Below, piece after piece: positions 3,535 through 57,649 of a DNA stretch of 64,000 nucleotides; the stretch's first letter is position 1; each line of letters begins with the position of its first letter. Source of the stretch: Olegusella massiliensis (GTDB lineage Bacteria > Actinomycetota > Coriobacteriia > Coriobacteriales > Atopobiaceae); the NCBI RefSeq assembly GCF_900078545.1, contig NZ_FLLS01000002.1, positions 1,373,404 to 1,437,403 of the forward strand, read 5' to 3'. A program made the position numbers and the translations under genes. The notes under the pieces were generated by a model. That model saw nothing but the letters and a program-made list of their open reading frames with translations. It did not search any database and was not told the origin of the DNA.

Positions 3535-3570
3535 AAATGCGGCGGGTCCCAGCTGGGGTCCGCCGCATTT
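3535..3570 (+). terminator. Probable terminator after the NlpC/P60 gene
   Basis: A perfect 11-base-pair stem (arms 3535-3545 and 3560-3570, AAATGCGGCGG and its complement) encloses a 14-base loop 14 bases after the stop codon. The right arm ends in TTT but no long T run follows, so it may attenuate rather than fully stop transcription into the next gene. Confidence 0.6.
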
Positions 3571-20917: not shown

Positions 20918-21099
20918 GTTTATCGCTTGTACGGAATTGTCTTCAGCGAAGAACTCATTTTGCAATGAATCAAAAGCTGTTCGAATGGGCACACTGCTGC
21001 CATTAACCGTTTTTTGGGCGCACGTTACCCATCGACTGCTGTAGTGCTACTATGAGTGGATACATATGCCAAGCAAATACAGCACAAACGGAGGTAGGC

Positions 21100-22437
21100 T
21101 TGGAAACGCGTAAGAACAAGCGCAATGGCGCTTATCCTTTTAACCCAGACCGCATGAATACCCCTGCAGATGATGCTGCTGATATGCCGGGCGAGTCTAC
21201 GTTTACTCGTCGTGCTGCCCTGCGTATGCTGTTAGGCGCTGGCATTGGTACGGCTCTGCTTCCCACGACAGCCCTTGCTGTGGACAAGACCAAGGTCAAC
21301 GAAGCCCAGGATGCTCTGGACGACGCTCAGGCGAAATACGACCAAGTGAATTCTCAGCTTGATATGCTTGGTAATGAGTTTGAGGAGTTGGCACAGCAGC
21401 AGTCTGCGACACTCAGCCAGATTGAAGAGACCTCGCGTCAAATCGATGACACCAAGACAAAGGTGGGCGATACTCAAAAACGTATTGACGAGACGCAAAA
21501 AGACATTGCTAAGCGCCAAGCTGAGCTTGACTCCAAAAAAGAGGTGCTTGCGGCTCGCGTTGCGGGGGCGTACAAGTCTGGTGGACGCGACTTTTTGTCA
21601 GTACTCATGAGTTCTGCTTCCTTTGAGGATCTTATTTCCAACGTTTACTATCTCGACAAAATCAGTGAATCTGATGCGGCGATGATTGAGGACGTCAAGA
21701 AGGCAAAAGAGACGCTGGACCGCAAAAAGGCTGGACTTGAGGAAGATAAGACCAAGCTGCAAGAGCAGCAAAAGTCTTTAGAACAGCAGAAATCCGACCT
21801 TGATACACTCAGCCAGACCCAAAAGCAACAGCTTGAGGATATGCGTGCCAAGCAAAACGAGGTGCAAAAAACTCTTGATGGCTTGTCTGGTGAAGTTGCG
21901 AGCTTGATGAAGAAGCGCGATGCCGAGATTATGGACTACAATGCGGCGCGTCAGGCTGAGAAGGAAGCAGCAAGAAAAGCGGCTGCGGACAGCAATCCTG
22001 GTAGCAGTAATGCGGGATCACATATTTCTAAGGGCGGCGGTCAGTCTTCAGCCTCTACGGGTTCGCAGGCAGCTATCGTGAATGCTTGTCATAGTGTTGG
22101 TTCGCCTGGTGCAGGTTACTGTGCTATGTGGATATCGCTGGTGTTCCAGCGCGCGGGCTATGGCTATATTGGTGGCGATGCATGTGATATGTATAACGCC
22201 TATTGCACCAGCTCTAGCAAATCCAACCTTAAAGTTGGCATGATTGTAGCGGTATCGTCGCACCCCCATACGCGTGCTGGTCGTATTTATGGTCACATTG
22301 GCATCTATATCGGTGGCGGTATGATGATGGACAACATTGGCTATATTCGTACCGAAAGCGTTGATGAGTGGATTTCTTATTATGGTCAGACGGTGACGCC
22401 GCGCTGGGGCTGGGCTGGCAACATAGTTTTGAGCTAA
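21100..22437 (+). CDS. Secreted coiled-coil CHAP-type cell wall hydrolase
   Basis: A protein of 445 residues from TTG 21100, which has GGAGG five bases upstream; the in-frame ATG at 21052 lacks such a site. The N-terminus has a twin-arginine-like export signal (TRRAALRMLLGAG from about residue 36, ending TTALA near 60). Coiled coils (about 65-280) include the motif SFEDLISNVYYLDKI, shared with the hydrolase at 2304. A Ser/Gly linker leads to a C-terminal CHAP-like domain with C341 (GYCAMWIS) and H399 (GHIGIYIG) as the expected catalytic pair. CHAP domains cut amide or peptide bonds in peptidoglycan. The gene ends beside an inverted repeat that belongs to a dispersed family. Confidence 0.85.
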   Translation: METRKNKRNGAYPFNPDRMNTPADDAADMPGESTFTRRAALRMLLGAGIGTALLPTTALAVDKTKVNEAQDALDDAQAKYDQVNSQLDMLGNEFEELAQQQSATLSQIEETSRQIDDTKTKVGDTQKRIDETQKDIAKRQAELDSKKEVLAARVAGAYKSGGRDFLSVLMSSASFEDLISNVYYLDKISESDAAMIEDVKKAKETLDRKKAGLEEDKTKLQEQQKSLEQQKSDLDTLSQTQKQQLEDMRAKQNEVQKTLDGLSGEVASLMKKRDAEIMDYNAARQAEKEAARKAAADSNPGSSNAGSHISKGGGQSSASTGSQAAIVNACHSVGSPGAGYCAMWISLVFQRAGYGYIGGDACDMYNAYCTSSSKSNLKVGMIVAVSSHPHTRAGRIYGHIGIYIGGGMMMDNIGYIRTESVDEWISYYGQTVTPRWGWAGNIVLS

Positions 22438-22453
22438 GGCTGCCCTTATATCC

Positions 22454-22533
22454 ACAGATGGTTCATCCTTCGGTGTTTACTGCCATAAATGCGCAGGTCA
22501 TTTTTTTGGAAGTCCGAAGGACGAACCATCTGT
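22454..22533. repeat. Inverted repeat, small copy of a dispersed palindromic repeat family
   Basis: Arms of 20 bases (22454-22473 and 22514-22533) match in inverted orientation with one mismatch, around a 40-base loop. On the minus strand the mismatch becomes a G-U pair. The left arm begins ACAGATGGTTCATCCTTCG; the same 19 bases occur at 27613. It lies between two converging genes. No transposase or clear target duplication is seen. Confidence 0.85.
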
Positions 22534-22644
22534 AGAAACAGCTGTAAAAGTAAGCACATAGAAGCAAGCAAAGCAAACATATGCAAGCACACGCCAGTGC
22601 ACATAACCGTAGCTCAGCATGCTCCTATGTCACAAATAGGTGTA

Positions 22645-24123
22645 CTAGCCGTCGTTGCGCGAGAAGCTGTTGGTCATGCGTAGGCTGACAGTATCCAACA
22701 CGCATGCGAGCAACTTGTTAGTTTCCTCGCGAACGACATCGGCAATGGCTTCGTTAGTCTGCTCGCGGATCTGCTCGTTAGCTTCGTCTTCAACCTCGTA
22801 AATGAGCGCAAGAGCACGAGCGGGTACTGCTTGCTGATAGCGCTCGATAAGCGGAGCGCAGTCGTAGAAGTGTGCATCGGCCATAGCGGCAATCAAACGA
22901 TTTGCCCAGTAAAAAGACTCAGTACTGACCCTGGAGCTGGTGTTGGAGAAGTACTCAGGTGTTCTGCTGACTCCCACAAACTGAGGAACGATAGCGTTAA
23001 AGACATTAGAGCCAAATGCGAGCCAATGGATCGCACGAGTAGCCTCAGGACCGTCAGCGCGAAGTTGCAAAATAGATAGCTCACTGGTGCGGTTGATGCC
23101 AATGGGGCGATACATACGGCGCTGTGCTGGATCGCCTCCACGTCCGTATGGGTCATATGGTGTGCCCTGATAGTGGCGGGAAAGCAAATCTTTAACGTCA
23201 GCGACGGTGAGTTTGCGTTCGGGATGTACTGCCCAAGGAATATCATCGCTTTCAGGGGTAAACTCGGCATCAGGTCCTACCCATAGTGCTCCGTGAGGTG
23301 TAAGGGTGCGCTGTAAGTCCCAAGCGCGTGGCGTATTATATACGTGGTCAGCATCGGAGTGTGATCCAAAAGCGTAACGGGGGTTGAATTGGCCATCCAG
23401 TGAAAGATCTAGGTGATTGGTTGATATAAACTCACGTAAATCCTCACTACATAAGAAGTTTATGCCCTCTCCAAAGGCGTCTTTCATATCAAAAAAGTCG
23501 ATTCCCAATTGATTGGGCATGGTAACGACGCAATCATCAGGAACACGGACAGCAATCCAGTGGTGACCACCGATAGTTTCGAGCCACCAAATCTCGTGAG
23601 CGTCTGAAAATGCAATGCCGTTCATTTCGTACGTGCCATATTCGCTCAGCAGAGCACCAAGGCGGATTACACCTTCTCGAGCACTGTGGATATAAGGCAG
23701 CACGCAGGTAACAAAATCTTCTTCACCAAGACCGCCTGCAAGCTCGGGAATATAACCACTCTCACCCTCAGTGCCGACAGCGGCAATGAGCTCCACGAGT
23801 GGGTCAGCTGCAAGTACAAGTTCGTTGGTGGTGATGGTTTCTGTTGCGTTCATTGCAACATTAGCATCGTTAATACCAGCAGCAGCCCAAGTACCGCCAC
23901 CCTCAATAGCTTCGGGGGTCGAGCTGTAACGCAGGGGATTATCGGGTAGCTCTACTTCCACATGGCTGATGACCGAGCGGTAATGACGAGGTTGGTCTTC
24001 GGGGTTAACGATGACAAATTTTTTGGGATTCCACTCACCGTTGCAAGAATCCTCATTGCGTCCGACGAGCGTCGAACCGTCGTAGCTCACTGCTTTTCCT
24101 ACAAGCAAAGTCGTGCAAGACAT
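22645..24123 (-). CDS. C69-family dipeptidase
   Basis: A 492-residue peptidase starting at ATG 24123 behind AAAGGAGG. The N-terminus MSCTTLLVGKAVSYDGSTLVGRNEDS (read here in two pieces around residue 14) is typical of lactobacillal PepD: Cys3 becomes the N-terminal nucleophile after the first residues are removed. Further hallmarks are NAMN-like segments (NVAMNATET) and the ALLSEYGTYEMNGIAFSD stretch that follows. The enzyme is an Ntn hydrolase that cleaves a broad range of dipeptides in the cytoplasm. With the Opp importer and two M20 dipeptidases in this window it fits peptide-based nutrition. It converges on the CHAP hydrolase and is divergent from cspA. Confidence 0.9.
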   Translation of the reverse strand: MSCTTLLVGKAVSYDGSTLVGRNEDSCNGEWNPKKFVIVNPEDQPRHYRSVISHVEVELPDNPLRYSSTPEAIEGGGTWAAAGINDANVAMNATETITTNELVLAADPLVELIAAVGTEGESGYIPELAGGLGEEDFVTCVLPYIHSAREGVIRLGALLSEYGTYEMNGIAFSDAHEIWWLETIGGHHWIAVRVPDDCVVTMPNQLGIDFFDMKDAFGEGINFLCSEDLREFISTNHLDLSLDGQFNPRYAFGSHSDADHVYNTPRAWDLQRTLTPHGALWVGPDAEFTPESDDIPWAVHPERKLTVADVKDLLSRHYQGTPYDPYGRGGDPAQRRMYRPIGINRTSELSILQLRADGPEATRAIHWLAFGSNVFNAIVPQFVGVSRTPEYFSNTSSRVSTESFYWANRLIAAMADAHFYDCAPLIERYQQAVPARALALIYEVEDEANEQIREQTNEAIADVVREETNKLLACVLDTVSLRMTNSFSRNDG

Positions 24124-24325
24124 GCTGCCTCCTTTTGTCCAAAGCTGCAAACGTTATAGTGTGCATTTAGCAGTCTATATACGCCGTCAGCGGATTGTTG
24201 GCATAAAACACCTTGTTTTGAGGTACTATAACCCTTGTGTCGCGCGGGACATCCGCTCGATATGGTATCGCGCGAAAAGCGCAGCGTTTATTGCGTCATA
24301 AAGGCGCACGAAGGAAAGGCACGTC

Positions 24326-24529
24326 ATGGCACAGGGTACTGTTAAGTGGTTCAACCCCGACAAGGGCTACGGCTTCATCTCTCGCGAGGATGGCGACGAC
24401 CTGTTCGTCCACTACAGCGAGATCAAGATGGACGGTTTCAAAACTCTTGATGAGGGTCAGGCTGTCGAGTTTGATATCACTACTGGTCAGAATGGTAAGC
24501 TTCAGGCTTCCAACGTCACCAAGGCATAG
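24326..24529 (+). CDS. cspA: Cold shock protein, CspA family
   Basis: A 67-residue single OB-fold protein. The RNA-binding motifs are visible: RNP1 in [10 protein letters not shown] and RNP2 in [10 protein letters not shown]. The start at 24326 has GAAAGG upstream. The protein acts as an RNA chaperone that opens secondary structure. The upstream region between 24124 and 24325 is shared with the divergent C69 dipeptidase, and a TATA-like stretch near 24227-24235 would give a leader of about 90 bases, as is common for csp mRNAs; this promoter is tentative. A strong terminator follows. Confidence 0.96.
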
Positions 24530-24565
24530 TTTCCCGCTGCGCTTAGCAGCTGAAGCAAAAGCTTG

Positions 24566-24596
24566 AGAGGGGTCCGAAAGGGTCCCTCTTTTTTTG
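24566..24596 (+). terminator. Intrinsic terminator after cspA
   Basis: AGAGGG (24566-24571) pairs with CCCTCT, extended inward by two G-U and two G-C pairs to a GAAA tetraloop, then seven T. This is a complete rho-independent terminator. Confidence 0.9.
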
Positions 24597-24654
24597 TAGG
24601 TTCAAAATCCCAAAAGTCGACTTATGCCAAATTCCTGCAGTTATGAGTTGACAT

Positions 24655-24683
24655 TTGGTGAATGGGCTTCTCTCGGGTAGAAT
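24655..24683 (+). promoter_or_regulatory. Candidate promoter of the lysozyme-like coiled-coil gene
   Basis: TTGGTG (24655-24660) and TAGAAT (24678-24683) are separated by 17 bases. The surrounding ATGGG ... CTCTCG ... GTAGAAT pattern recurs at 27850-27876. This would give a leader of about 170 bases. Confidence 0.45.
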
Positions 24684-24862
24684 CTTGAAAGTTATTCGGT
24701 TGCCATAGCTTGCTTATAGGCTGTTGTAGCCCACAAAAATGAAGAGTTTTTTATTTGCAGGATACGTCGTCGTTTTGGTCTTGGGCGGCAAAGCACTATT
24801 TAAGAGACAAGACGTACCTCCGCTTATGCGGCCAAAAGGTGCGCAGAAGAAGGGACTCTAGC

Positions 24863-26011
24863 GTGCAGCAATGGCAGGCAGCAACTAGTCGACAAGCGCT
24901 CAAGATTCTCGCACTTGCACTTGCAGGCACTTTGTTGGCATTCTCAACGCCGATTGTTCTTCCCCATGTCGCATACGCCGCTGGTAAAGATGACATTGCT
25001 TCTATTGCCAAGCGTGTTGAGAAGGCAAACGACGATTATGATGCCGCGGTCAAGAAAGTCGAAGATGTCAAGAAGCGTATGAGTGAGGTCCAAGATCGTA
25101 TTGATACGATTAATGCTCAACTCCCTGAGCAGCGCGAAAAGTCTGCAAGCTCTATGCGCACGCTCTATAAGTTCCAACAGTCTCGCGGAGGCCTGATTGA
25201 TTTAGTCCTTTCTTCAGAGGATTTTTCGAGCCTTTTATCGACTCTTCAGTATCTCAACATTATTTCGGATAAAAATACCGATGAAATTACTTCTTTGATA
25301 GAACTGCAAGACGAGCTTGAAGTAGCTCAGACCACTCTCACGGCGGAAAAAGTTGAGGCTGAGGAAGCCCGTCAAAAGGCAGAGGATGCGTTGAATGCAG
25401 CCGAGGAGGCTCGTGCTGAGGCAGAAGCTCGTGCGGTAGAGCAGGCAAAGGAAGAGGCGGCTGCCCGCGCGGCAGCTCTTGCTGAGGCAGAAAAGGCAGA
25501 AGCCGAGCATAAGACTTTTAAGACCGTTAATGGTAACGAAGTTAAGGTGAGTTCCAACGCCAAACAAGACGGGTCAACTCCTGCAAAAGTTGATCACAAC
25601 ACGTCTGCTGTAGAAACTAACGGTGGCAATAAGAAAAGCAATGGTTCTTCTTCATCTGACTCTGTTGACTCCTGGGCTGCACGCATTGATGCCTACCTTG
25701 CAGGTTCGCCGCTTGCTGGTCAGGGGAGGACTTTCGCCGAAGCTGCTCTTCGCTATGGTGTTGATCCGCGCTGGTCTCCAGCAATTTCATGCATCGAGTC
25801 CAGCAAAGGCGCTGCTTGTTTTAAGCCACATAATGCGTGGGGCTGGGGCAGCTGCAGCTGGGGTAGTTGGGAAGAGGCTATCAATGCGCACGTTGCTGGC
25901 CTCGCGAGTGGCTATGGCTATACCATCTCGCTAAGCGCGGCAAAGAAGTATTGCCCGCCCAACTATTCTTTCTGGTATTCTTGCGTCTCCTCGGAGATGG
26001 CTAGCATCTAA
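24863..26011 (+). CDS. Secreted coiled-coil protein with lysozyme-like C-terminal domain
   Basis: A protein of 382 residues from GTG 24863, preceded by AGAAGGGA; a longer frame from TTG 24755 has no site. A signal peptide (about residues 10-39, ending AYA) precedes coiled coils (about 42-230) that carry the motif DFSSLLSTLQYLNII, related to the hydrolases at 2304 and 21100. After a Lys/Ser/Asn linker comes a domain with FAEAALRYGVDPRWSPAI and CIESSKG; E312 in that motif fits the catalytic glutamate of lytic transglycosylase or goose-type lysozyme folds. Tryptophan- and cysteine-rich NAWGWGSCSWGSW follows. A peptidoglycan glycan-cutting or binding role is likely. The domain assignment is by motif only. 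Confidence 0.75.
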   Translation: MQQWQAATSRQALKILALALAGTLLAFSTPIVLPHVAYAAGKDDIASIAKRVEKANDDYDAAVKKVEDVKKRMSEVQDRIDTINAQLPEQREKSASSMRTLYKFQQSRGGLIDLVLSSEDFSSLLSTLQYLNIISDKNTDEITSLIELQDELEVAQTTLTAEKVEAEEARQKAEDALNAAEEARAEAEARAVEQAKEEAAARAAALAEAEKAEAEHKTFKTVNGNEVKVSSNAKQDGSTPAKVDHNTSAVETNGGNKKSNGSSSSDSVDSWAARIDAYLAGSPLAGQGRTFAEAALRYGVDPRWSPAISCIESSKGAACFKPHNAWGWGSCSWGSWEEAINAHVAGLASGYGYTISLSAAKKYCPPNYSFWYSCVSSEMASI

Positions 26012-26151
26012 GCCAAAGAGACAGGTAAGTAAACTTAAACGAGCTTGATGCGCGAGTATCCGCTGCGATAGGTCTTAAGTCTGGATTATCGGCTCCTTTT
26101 GTGTCGTTTTACTCCGCGCAAAAATGTGAGTATTGAGGTTGGGAGGCCTAG

Positions 26152-27567
26152 ATGGTTGATGAACAATTCAAGCAGAACGTTGATGCCTTTGTCGATGAGG
26201 TCTGGGAAGACGTTGTTGCTGATATTCGCAGGCTCGTGCGTATTCGTTCTGTCGAGGATCGCGCTGCCGCAAAGCCTGGTATGCCTTGGGGTTCTGCCTC
26301 CCATGATGCGCTCGTAGTCGGTCTAGGCATTGCCGATCGTTTGGGCCTGGACGCACATGAGTGCGAGGGTTATTTGGGCTACGCAGACCTTGCCGGTGAG
26401 TCGGACAAGCAAATCGCGACCATTGCTCATACTGATGTTGTGCCCGAAGGCTTAGGTTGGACCTTTCCTCCCTTTGATGTTTCGCGTAAGGAAGGTTGCC
26501 TTGTTGGTCGTGGTGTTTTGGACGATAAAGGCCCCTGTGTGTTATCGCTTTATGCTGCTCACTATTTTGTGCGTGAGGTACAACGTAGCGGCAAGAAGCT
26601 TCCGTATACCCTGCGCTGCATCGTAGGTAACAATGAAGAAACCAATATGAAAGACCTTGATTGGTATCTTGAGCGCTACCCCATGCCTGTATTTGCATTT
26701 TCGCCCGATGCAGAGTTCCCGCTGATTTGCGGTGAGAAGGGCCTGTATTCAGGAACTTTTTGCTCGGGCAAGATTGCAGGTGATGTCATTGTTGAGCTCG
26801 ATGGCGGTACCGTTGGCAATGCAATTCCTGGTCGCGCAACTGCTGTGGTCAGGCGTGTAGCAAGTGAGCTGCCTGAAGCCGATAATATCGATATTGAGGC
26901 GGCGGGGGATAGCCAGGCACTCATTACTGCTCATGGCAAGGGAGGTCATGCTTCTCGACCTGCAGGTACTATCAATGCGATTGCTTTGCTTGTTGACTAT
27001 TTGCTAGAGCACAAGCTGTGCTCTGCTAAGGAGCGCGTCTTCCTCGAGATGGAGCGCATACTGCTTGCGACAACCGATGGCTCTTCGGTGGGCATCGCAA
27101 GTGAGGATGATAAGTTTGGGCCGCTGACGCTCATTGGTGGCACAGTGCGTACGGAGAACGGCTGCTTTATACAGACGGTTGATTCACGCTTCCCGACTAC
27201 TACGACGGGTGAACACATCACCGAAACACTCAGCAGCTTTGGAGCCCAATATGGCTGCAACTACGCTGAAGGACGCAATGTTACGCCCTTTTATGTGAGC
27301 CCTGAGCTGCCCGAGATTCGCTGTTTGTTGGATACTTATGAAGAGTATAGCGGGCGTGAGGGCAAGGCCTTTACCATTGGCGGTGGTACCTATGCGCGCC
27401 ACTTTGCTTGTGGAGCTGCCTTTGGTCCCTGGGATCCAGCCGATCCTGTACCCGAGTGGGCAGGCCCCGAGCATGGTCCCAATGAGGCAATTCCTGAGGC
27501 CAGCCTTAAGCGTGCGCTTAAAATTTATATTGTGAGCATTGCCCGACTGATGGAACTCGAATTCTAA
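26152..27567 (+). CDS. M20 family dipeptidase, PepV-like, copy 1
   Basis: A 471-residue metallopeptidase starting at ATG 26152 behind GGGAGG. Zinc-ligand motifs are visible: IAHTDVVPEG (His), GRGVLDDKGP (Asp), NNEETNMKD (Glu pair with the catalytic base), FSPDAEFP (Asp) and GGGTYARHF near the end (His). PepV-type enzymes remove N-terminal residues from dipeptides and some tripeptides in the cytoplasm. The gene at 28998 encodes a protein of identical length, with by eye about half the residues identical, so the two are old paralogues. A repeat array and an inverted HAD gene lie between them. Confidence 0.88.
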   Translation: MVDEQFKQNVDAFVDEVWEDVVADIRRLVRIRSVEDRAAAKPGMPWGSASHDALVVGLGIADRLGLDAHECEGYLGYADLAGESDKQIATIAHTDVVPEGLGWTFPPFDVSRKEGCLVGRGVLDDKGPCVLSLYAAHYFVREVQRSGKKLPYTLRCIVGNNEETNMKDLDWYLERYPMPVFAFSPDAEFPLICGEKGLYSGTFCSGKIAGDVIVELDGGTVGNAIPGRATAVVRRVASELPEADNIDIEAAGDSQALITAHGKGGHASRPAGTINAIALLVDYLLEHKLCSAKERVFLEMERILLATTDGSSVGIASEDDKFGPLTLIGGTVRTENGCFIQTVDSRFPTTTTGEHITETLSSFGAQYGCNYAEGRNVTPFYVSPELPEIRCLLDTYEEYSGREGKAFTIGGGTYARHFACGAAFGPWDPADPVPEWAGPEHGPNEAIPEASLKRALKIYIVSIARLMELEF

Positions 27568-27612
27568 GACCTTCTTGTAGTTTAGATGCTTCAAGCTTCA
27601 GTTCGCATAAGC

Positions 27613-27813
27613 ACAGATGGTTCATCCTTCGAGTTGTTTACTAACAGATGGTTCGTTTGTCGAACTAGAAAAAAATCTGACCTGCGCTTTTATACTCGCC
27701 GACTTCGAAACTCGAACCATCTTTTGTTTGAGGCTTCGAAACTTGAACCATCTGTTATGTTTACTTCGAAACTTGAACCATCTGTTATGTTTACTTCGAA
27801 ACTGGTTGTAGGG
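27613..27813. repeat. Array of 30-31 base repeats in two orientations
   Basis: Two forward units start with ACAGATGGTTC at 27613 and 27644 (31 apart). After a spacer of about 35 bases, units in the opposite orientation start with CTTCGAAACT at 27703, 27734, 27764 and 27794 (31, 30, 30 apart), the last being partial. The units at 27734 and 27764 are identical over 30 bases. The forward and reverse units are complementary over GAACCATCTGT and TTCGAA, so a transcript of either strand could fold into long hairpins. There are no unique spacers, so it is not CRISPR. The unit is shared with the inverted repeat at 22454. Confidence 0.88.
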
Positions 27814-27928
27814 TACGTCAGGGCATGCCTTCTGATATAGCAACCATTCAATGGGAGAATCTCTCTCGTGTAGAATTTGGCTTGTTTATACCTAGCTACT
27901 CGGCACTTCTTACTGAGGTAGCTTTTGC

Positions 27929-27964
27929 AAAACACTCCTTCAGCTTAGTCTGGAGGAGTGTTTT
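27929..27964. terminator. Bidirectional terminator between the M20 peptidase and the HAD gene
   Basis: Perfect 11-base arms AAAACACTCCT (27929-27939) and AGGAGTGTTTT (27954-27964) enclose a 14-base loop. The A-rich and T-rich ends let it work in both directions. Confidence 0.85.
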
Positions 27965-28036
27965 CTCAATAGCAGTATGAAAATGGAACTGGTGTGGGGA
28001 CGTATCATTTACTTAGTTACCTGTGAATAATGTTTC

Positions 28037-28705
28037 TTATGTCAGACAGATATCCCGCCAGTCGTGTAAAAAAATATCTGCGAGCCGTGTTATGACCTGC
28101 TCGTCTTGCATGGGGTCATTACTGGCAACAGCGCAGGTTAACATTCCAACACTATGAGCAGAACGAATACCCTCAGCAAGATCTTCGAACACAATACAGT
28201 TGGCTGGGGCAACGCCAAGCCGATGAGCCGCCTCGAGGTAAATATCAGGATGATCCTTGGGATGGGAGACATCCTTCCCATAAACCTGTTGGTCAAAAAG
28301 ACTGTGCACATCAATATGACGGCATGATTCTAATACCTCAGCATCGTTTACCGTTGCCAATGCACAGGGAATGCCCTGCTTTCTTAAGGCTTCGATATAG
28401 GCTTGAGCGCCTGGACGTAAACGAACGCGGTTGTGATAGAGTGCCTTTCCCAATCGGTTCCACTCATCACATATTTCATCGACAGTTTCACGCAGGCCAA
28501 AACGCTCGATGGTATAGCGCGCGCCCTCCTGAAACCCCATCATTGAGAGCATTTTTTGGTACTCAAGATCAACCTCAATGCCACGTGAACCCAAAAAAAT
28601 TTGATCGACCTCATGCCAGATCGAGTGCGTCTCAGCAATTGTTCCATCAAAATCAAAAATTGCAGCTACAAATTCTGCCGGCCATAGCCGTGTATCTACT
28701 GCCAT
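28037..28705 (-). CDS. HAD-superfamily phosphatase or phosphomutase
   Basis: A 222-residue cytoplasmic HAD subfamily I protein. The nucleophile and acid are D18 and D20 in IFDFDGT; a helical cap follows. Motif II lies near IPCALATVNDAEVLE and motif IV in IVFEDLAEGIRSAHSVGM. The HPDIYLEAAHRLGV segment is typical of the beta-phosphoglucomutase-like branch, which removes phosphate from small metabolites or damaged sugars, and substrates cannot be told from sequence. It lies inverted between the two M20 dipeptidase genes. Confidence 0.85.
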   Translation of the reverse strand: MAVDTRLWPAEFVAAIFDFDGTIAETHSIWHEVDQIFLGSRGIEVDLEYQKMLSMMGFQEGARYTIERFGLRETVDEICDEWNRLGKALYHNRVRLRPGAQAYIEALRKQGIPCALATVNDAEVLESCRHIDVHSLFDQQVYGKDVSHPKDHPDIYLEAAHRLGVAPANCIVFEDLAEGIRSAHSVGMLTCAVASNDPMQDEQVITRLADIFLHDWRDICLT

Positions 28706-57455: not shown

Positions 57456-57514
57456 AGGTCACTCTCACGTGGCGTTACTCGCGCAAGCTACACTGCTTGT
57501 CCATAGGTAGTTCA

Positions 57515-57545
57515 AGGGAGTCGCCTTGCTGCGGCTCCCTTTTTC
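57515..57545. terminator. Terminator after fruA
   Basis: AGGGAGTCGC (57515-57524) pairs with GCGGCTCCCT (57531-57540), with one G-U pair, then a run of T. It can also serve the converging alpha/beta hydrolase gene. Confidence 0.85.
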
Positions 57546-57649
57546 TTTTCGACTCTGCTGAAAGATCGAGGCTGCTTTAACGATTACGACTCTGCCTGTC
57601 AAACGCCACACATCGTTTTAACTGTCGTGTCTTTGAAGCAGATGGATCG

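Follow-up and report, generated by a model that had tools for sequence, protein, structure and literature searches.

A stem-loop between converging genes in Olegusella massiliensis is a solo copy of a dispersed palindromic repeat whose relatives bracket AbiEi-like genes

BIME/REP elements of Escherichia coli are built from palindromic units, occupy intergenic 3′ positions, and are few in divergent gaps. REPINs of the REP-RAYT systems are short, extragenic palindromic doublets, present as several families per genome, each with its own partner gene (PMC3116915, available part of the text). The inverted repeats bound by AbiEi are 23 bp long, and neither of two homologues binds those of the other; its operator consists of inverted repeats of ∼20 bp that adjoin the gene, several per site, and that are homologue-specific (PMC7319586, available part of the text). 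We found no paper in the open-access literature on repeats like those reported here, and the accessible part of the RepRanger article (PMC12306157) holds no Coriobacteria term.

We analyzed a 64,000-nucleotide stretch of the O. massiliensis genome (the window), the whole 1.81-Mb genome (G000), and that of the sister species Atopobium sp. oral taxon 810 F0209 (G001). The stem-loop at 22454-22533 belongs to a dispersed repeat, of which it is a solo copy. A preliminary description had given it 20-base arms with a single mismatch that is a G-U pair on the minus strand only. We confirmed these features: the arms are at 22454-22473 and 22514-22533 (22451-22473 and 22514-22536 in our rescan), and the mismatch is A/G, opposing A-C on the plus strand and G-U on the minus strand. 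As RNA, the stem-loop reaches −46.8 kcal/mol on the minus strand (z −10.9) and −39.6 kcal/mol on the plus strand (z −6.3), and 0 of 200 shuffles folded equally well. As had also been described, ACAGATGGTTCATCCTTCG and a GTTTACT after it are common to this element and the array at 27613, where GTTTACT lies 2 bases farther, and both loci are found between converging genes. The features are as follows.

21052-22437, plus strand: left neighbor gene of the 22454 element, PcsB coiled-coil / weak NlpC-P60 match, converging
22456-22472, plus strand: left arm of the 22454 element, AGATGGTTCATCCTTCG
22487-22509, plus strand: core of the 22454 element, AAATGCGCAGGTCATTTTTTTGG (family consensus AAAACCGCAGGTCANNTTTTTCG)
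22515-22531, minus strand: right arm of the 22454 element, AGATGGTTCGTCCTTCG on the minus strand
22645-24123, minus strand: right neighbor gene of the 22454 element, peptidase family C69, converging
27615-27631, plus strand: outer arm of the second element of the window
27646-27662, plus strand: inner arm of the second element, 31 bp past the outer arm
27672-27692, minus strand: core of the second element, AAAATCTGACCTGCGCTTTTA on the plus strand, in opposite orientation to the 22454 core
27706-27722, minus strand: inner arm of the second element, across the core
27737-27753, minus strand: outer arm of the second element, 31 bp on
27767-27783, minus strand: outer arm of the second element, a further 30 bp on

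The stop codon of the left gene is separated from the arm of the 22454 element by 17 bases. The loop of the hairpin contains GCGCAGGTCATTTTTTT, which had been missed before and which recurs in the middle of the 27613 array on the other strand (0 expected). GCGCAGGTCA and a T-run are common to the loop and the array center in opposite orientation, and the T-run of the 22454 hairpin sits inside the loop. The left arm of the stem-loop is also present in the 27613 array. Allowing one mismatch, GAACCATCTGT occurs 8 times in the window (0.70 expected), a number reached by no shuffle. Rfam covariance models matched neither element in a search of 22000-28200. Elsewhere in the window we noted a near-perfect 18-bp inverted repeat with no gap between its arms (3535-3570) and a sub-threshold Rfam match to the cspA thermoregulator (24162-24594, 33.5 bits against a cut-off of 78) lying over a small ORF (24237-24566).

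An asymmetric core (AAAACCGCAGGTCANNTTTTTCG) forms the middle of the repeat, flanked at a fixed distance by inverted 17-bp arms (AGATGGTTC-N5-TCG); in some copies, additional arms follow in steps of 31 bp. In G000 we counted 58 matches to the arm pattern AGATGGTTCR-N-TCG (2 for its reversed control) and 25 raw matches to the core, overlaps counted (0 for the control). We placed 24 element copies in G000, every one in an intergenic gap. Same-strand arms lie 31 bp apart in 17 of 22 cases in G000 and 13 of 22 in G001, and facing arms are spaced alike in 14 of 20 cases (G000) and 23 of 30 (G001); the arms never diverge. A loose scan of both genomes returned 54 arm pairs, of which 51 were kept (22 + 29) and three with a wrong spacing or no core were dropped. 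The consensus reads AGATGGTTC-RAGYT-TCG for the left arm and AGATGGTTC-RTYYY-TCG for the right arm, so that the two differ in a fixed way. Mean information, calculated from 45 equal-length copies, is 1.63 and 1.65 bits in the arms, 1.37 in the core, 0.71 and 0.84 in the spacers, and 0.64 in the flanks. The elements fall into arm families termed A, B, and C, of which G000 carries A and B, with at least one match to C. A region of G001 that is absent from G000 (L082, 990-1740) has B, C, and A family arms side by side in intergenic DNA.

The G-U pair found on the minus strand alone had been taken as a hint that the fold in that direction is preserved. The 51 copies of the two genomes do not bear this out: wobble-type mismatches split 22 versus 22 between the strands in G000 and 24 versus 36 in G001 (13 of the 36 come from one arm position), folding z averages −3.59 and −3.88 on the two strands, and the minus sense is stronger in 29 of 51 copies. 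The G-U pair of the 22454 stem is not general in the family. Within each genome, left/right identity at variable arm positions is close to the shuffled level, the exceptions being positions 13 (P = 0.002) and 1 (P = 0.041) in G000, which match above shuffles. At arm position 11, 39 of 51 copies carry a fixed contrast of A and T (A-A in the hairpin). A selection-kept RNA stem was rejected as a general rule. Since the arms are conserved without clear left/right covariation and folding has no strand bias, a protein-bound DNA site fits better than an RNA hairpin. The arm sequences are suggestive of half-sites for a DNA-binding protein, with which the 31-bp step, about three helical turns, would agree.

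The preliminary description had proposed a BIME/REP-like or terminator-like element and a genome-wide count of copies by gap type. Of the 24 placed copies, 13 occupy convergent, 10 tandem, and 1 divergent gaps, whereas the 163 background gaps comprise 18 convergent, 112 tandem, and 33 divergent ones. By Fisher test, the convergent enrichment has P = 4.6e-6 and the scarcity of divergent copies P = 0.041; the background is a local one because the stretches were picked around elements. The background includes gaps of at least 30 bases from the same stretches and the window, with genes called by a simple codon-score script and tRNAs added. The element does resemble REP/BIME as a dispersed extragenic palindrome enriched in convergent gaps; as for a terminator role, several copies lie beyond an existing hairpin and T-run. 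By eye, this is the case at 65.7k, 323.7k, 346.4k, and 1451k, where the hairpin and T-run already stand behind a gene or tRNA. Among the tandem-gap copies (10 of 24) the core occurs in either orientation. A function linked to the neighbor genes was considered and rejected, as these are ordinary and varied, with no recurring family in the 10 scanned.

For comparison of orthologous sites we matched 15 G000-G001 pairs and dropped one as ambiguous, leaving 14, of which three have one matched flank only. Ten pairs share the same orientation and four are flipped. The flanks are mostly 86-97% identical, with one as low as 81%, and element identity has a median of ∼0.73 versus 0.67 for random G000-G001 pairs. 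The elements vary in number, orientation, and sequence between the two genomes, the 22454 element being the best-kept pair (identity 0.89). G001 contains groups of near-identical, young copies, one of them where the G000 site is empty. Sites 27613, 346k, and 949k were rejected as clean empty sites, being occupied in G001 as well. No clear target-site duplication was found among the sites compared, one imperfect CCTAC repeat aside. In the gap orthologous to 27613, one same-genus relative (G004, L187) has GACGCCAAC-type palindromes and another (G002, L186) has longer tandem units. One further feature of the window belongs here.

57486-57649, strand unassigned: gap between converging genes with the relic of a family-B array; 57492-57609 aligns 77% to the right-hand array of G001

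Its counterpart in G001 is a family-B element, an AbiEi-like gene, and a second element over ∼2.5 kb, and G000 retains the decayed array piece alone.

A comparable arrangement is seen on contig C17 of G001 (160-163 kb), where two inverted elements flank one gene that is missing from G000. Neither Pfam nor NCBIfam gave a match to its 331-residue product. In a search of 395 Coriobacteriales genomes, 167 had homologues. The three paralogous genes of G001 encode a protein of ∼330 amino acids, AbiEi-like and with a conserved PD-(D/E)XK-like C-terminal region, that has no Pfam or NCBIfam name. PADLOC AbiEi models match 17 of 23 aligned homologues (best E 8.4e-13), and Pfam AbiEi_4 matches 1 of 23 (E 0.024). 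Glu-212, Asp-245, Glu-259, Asp-261, and Lys-265 are invariant in the alignment and lie in a YRVDFLW-LPDG-V-GELDGREKY stretch, which, by motif spacing, we take to resemble PD-(D/E)XK or DUF559-type nucleases; Pfam, NCBIfam, and the PDB gave no relevant match to a nuclease family. None of the Pfam transposase models matched the bracketed protein family. Two plasmid records match the protein (a 0.9-Mb Collinsella record and a Tsukamurella plasmid), both annotated as hypothetical protein; no phage record does, and a protein scan of viral contigs returned no relatives. In viral contigs, one core hit and seven arm-pair hits proved on reading of the sequence to be chance matches, the element itself being absent.

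Each of three paralogues in G001 is flanked on both sides by its own arm family (A, C, and B), around cores that are alike. We compared 450 bases on each side of the genes for 38 homologous proteins, one of which was dropped for short flanks, and found the same repeat on both sides of 22 of 37 genes at a score of at least 20; the other 15 share no flank repeat at that score. Among controls, 152 G000 genes scored at most 14, and the 99th percentile of 1332 crossed pairs was 15. The crossed-pair maximum is 174, with few high values, which we ascribe to related genomes. By score, 16 of the 22 genes have direct bracketing repeats and 6 have inverted ones; the 22 are not all independent, because some are near relatives (L369/L370, L368/L377). 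Among the matches listed, the bracketing repeats recur elsewhere in their own genomes, in at least 15 places in G076, 10 in G016, and 7 each in G106 and G034, and each bracketing element matched its own or near-relative genomes only. The core was detected by pattern beside 3 of 38 gene loci (L361, L369, L370), with a variant form seen by eye beside L391 and L392. Elements of G010 and G076 have the same core, ACAAAATGGCAGGTCGC; other bracketing palindromes have different centers, and the common core is thus a feature of Atopobium and G010/G076, not of all bracketed genes.

A scan of genome contigs with the core gave at least 114 hits in at least 113 stretches. Among the matches listed, the top nine by flanking inverted repeats are all Coriobacteriia (Gordonibacter, Adlercreutzia, Atopobiaceae RGIG4373, and Atopobium F0209), with non-Coriobacteriia hits mixed in further down. 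Most of the listed hits lie outside the Coriobacteriia and were rejected there as an element motif, being without arms and, in several cases, inside one coding gene, presumably guaA. With up to two mismatches, the 395 Coriobacteriales genomes contain 49 hits in 22 genomes (0 for the reversed-pattern control), mostly flanked by inverted arms that differ per lineage. In Eggerthellaceae (L303, L237, L300, L338, L339) the inverted arms on either side of the core are long, near-perfect, and specific to each lineage; among the profile-searched members, most are without the gene family and may have another partner.

We found no relative of the AbiEi-like protein in G000, profile search included. Its one classical AbiEi gene (Pfam AbiEi_4 match, C2:1112093) was rejected as a partner, as it adjoins no element. 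The profile search covered 17 genomes (G000 and 16 with or near core hits) and gave matches in G276, with an in-frame stop, and G089 (E 0.004) alone; elements and gene are therefore often apart. The G276 homologue (L401, L403) has an in-frame TGA and was matched in two pieces, with a core element elsewhere in that genome. Frequent absence of the gene from element-bearing genomes implies frequent loss, or other proteins serving there.

A reading of the 22454 hairpin has to accommodate a repeat family of defined geometry that brackets genes, is dispersed over chromosomes, turns over between sister species, and stands in G000 without the gene. Since G000 retains copies of families A and B, at least one match to C, and a decayed family-B array but lacks any relative of the gene, the 22454 element is best read as an orphan copy. 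We regard it as reasonably probable, judging from sequence comparison, that it is an orphan, non-autonomous REPIN-like copy that would have had an AbiEi-like protein as partner in place of a RAYT. The stem-loop would then be a dispersed palindromic element in solo form. Its arms are putative sites to which an AbiEi-like DNA-binding protein would bind, and the core would be the place where this protein family may act, possibly by cutting or nicking. In gene-bearing relatives, the protein would be encoded between two copies of its own element, with more copies scattered intergenically. Each paralogue would read its own arm sequence, a variable part of the protein recognizing the arms and a conserved part working on the core; three arm families around one core in Atopobium are as expected from such a division. 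Element copies might then be placed or converted at other sites, and those of G000 would be leftovers tolerated mostly in convergent gaps. Because the sister species and other relatives have a like repeat bracketing AbiEi-like, nuclease-like genes, the hairpin is probably what remains of a mobile element, not a plain transcription stop signal. More tentatively, these elements could represent an unnamed mobile-element class that combines an AbiEi-derived protein with a nuclease-like domain and its own palindromic arrays, with lineage-specific arms and a conserved core, and that would spread or convert solo arrays over Coriobacteriales chromosomes, where they would be left after gene loss.

Alternatively, the arms could be operator or roosting sites to which AbiEi-like regulators bind, spread and maintained for a chromosomal task (gene-end insulation, DNA bending, or protein titration) rather than moved by the protein. 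AbiEi is an autoregulator that binds inverted repeats (PMC7319586), the arms are strongly conserved, and positions are kept in the 14 G000-G001 pairs, best at 22454 (0.89). We nevertheless think this unlikely, since the 24 placed copies persist in G000 without the gene, orthologous sites differ in the number, orientation, and sequence of their elements, and copies on both sides of the gene (16 direct, 6 inverted of 22) exceed the needs of an operator.

The view of the preliminary description, a REP/BIME-type terminator or mRNA 3′-end element whose RNA fold is preserved between converging genes, draws on the strong fold, the enrichment in convergent gaps, and the distance of only 17 bases from the left stop codon to the arm. 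It appears improbable given 51 copies without strand bias in wobble mismatches or folding, the A-T contrast at position 11 in 39 of them, left/right arm identity at the shuffled level save for positions 13 and 1 in G000, and the 10 of 24 copies that lie in tandem gaps with the core either way round. An ordinary MITE or REP of a known transposase family, such as RAYT/HUH, that was missed here would likewise be dispersed, intergenic, and palindromic, and could form the young subfamilies of G001. We rate this as highly improbable: GTAG occurs in 3, CTAC in 5, and CGTC or GACG in 0 of 102 arm feet, and the gene between the copies is AbiEi-like, not a Y1 transposase.

If the REPIN-like reading is correct, populations of such repeats would have arisen twice, with unrelated partner proteins, and a relative of the AbiEi-type regulators would be linked to chromosome-wide repeats. 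This would also account for many unannotated palindromic arrays in gut and oral Coriobacteria. As three paralogues of one genome have different arms and the same core, the arm-reading and core-working parts of the protein can be told apart by direct test.

Compared with REPIN/RAYT systems, the element is likewise a dispersed palindromic doublet in extragenic space with like repeats near a partner gene, which adjoins its own repeats in 22 of 37 genes and in 3 of 3 G001 paralogues. It differs in that the partner is AbiEi-like with a PD-(D/E)XK-like C terminus rather than a tyrosine (Y1, HUH) transposase, in the lack of a GTAG/CGTC tag (3 GTAG and 0 CGTC in 102 arm feet), and in having arms at 31-bp steps and an asymmetric core common to several arm families. 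With AbiEi of the type IV toxin-antitoxin system AbiE it shares remote protein similarity and homologue-specific inverted repeats beside the gene; unlike in AbiEi, the repeats lie on both gene sides and genome-wide, with a conserved core, the protein has an extra C-terminal region, and the G001 insertion at C17:160k holds one gene only, with no toxin gene inside. The element resembles E. coli BIME/REP in its palindromic units, intergenic 3′ positions, and scarcity in divergent gaps, and is set apart from it by another sequence, another geometry, and arms that switch between lineages around one core.
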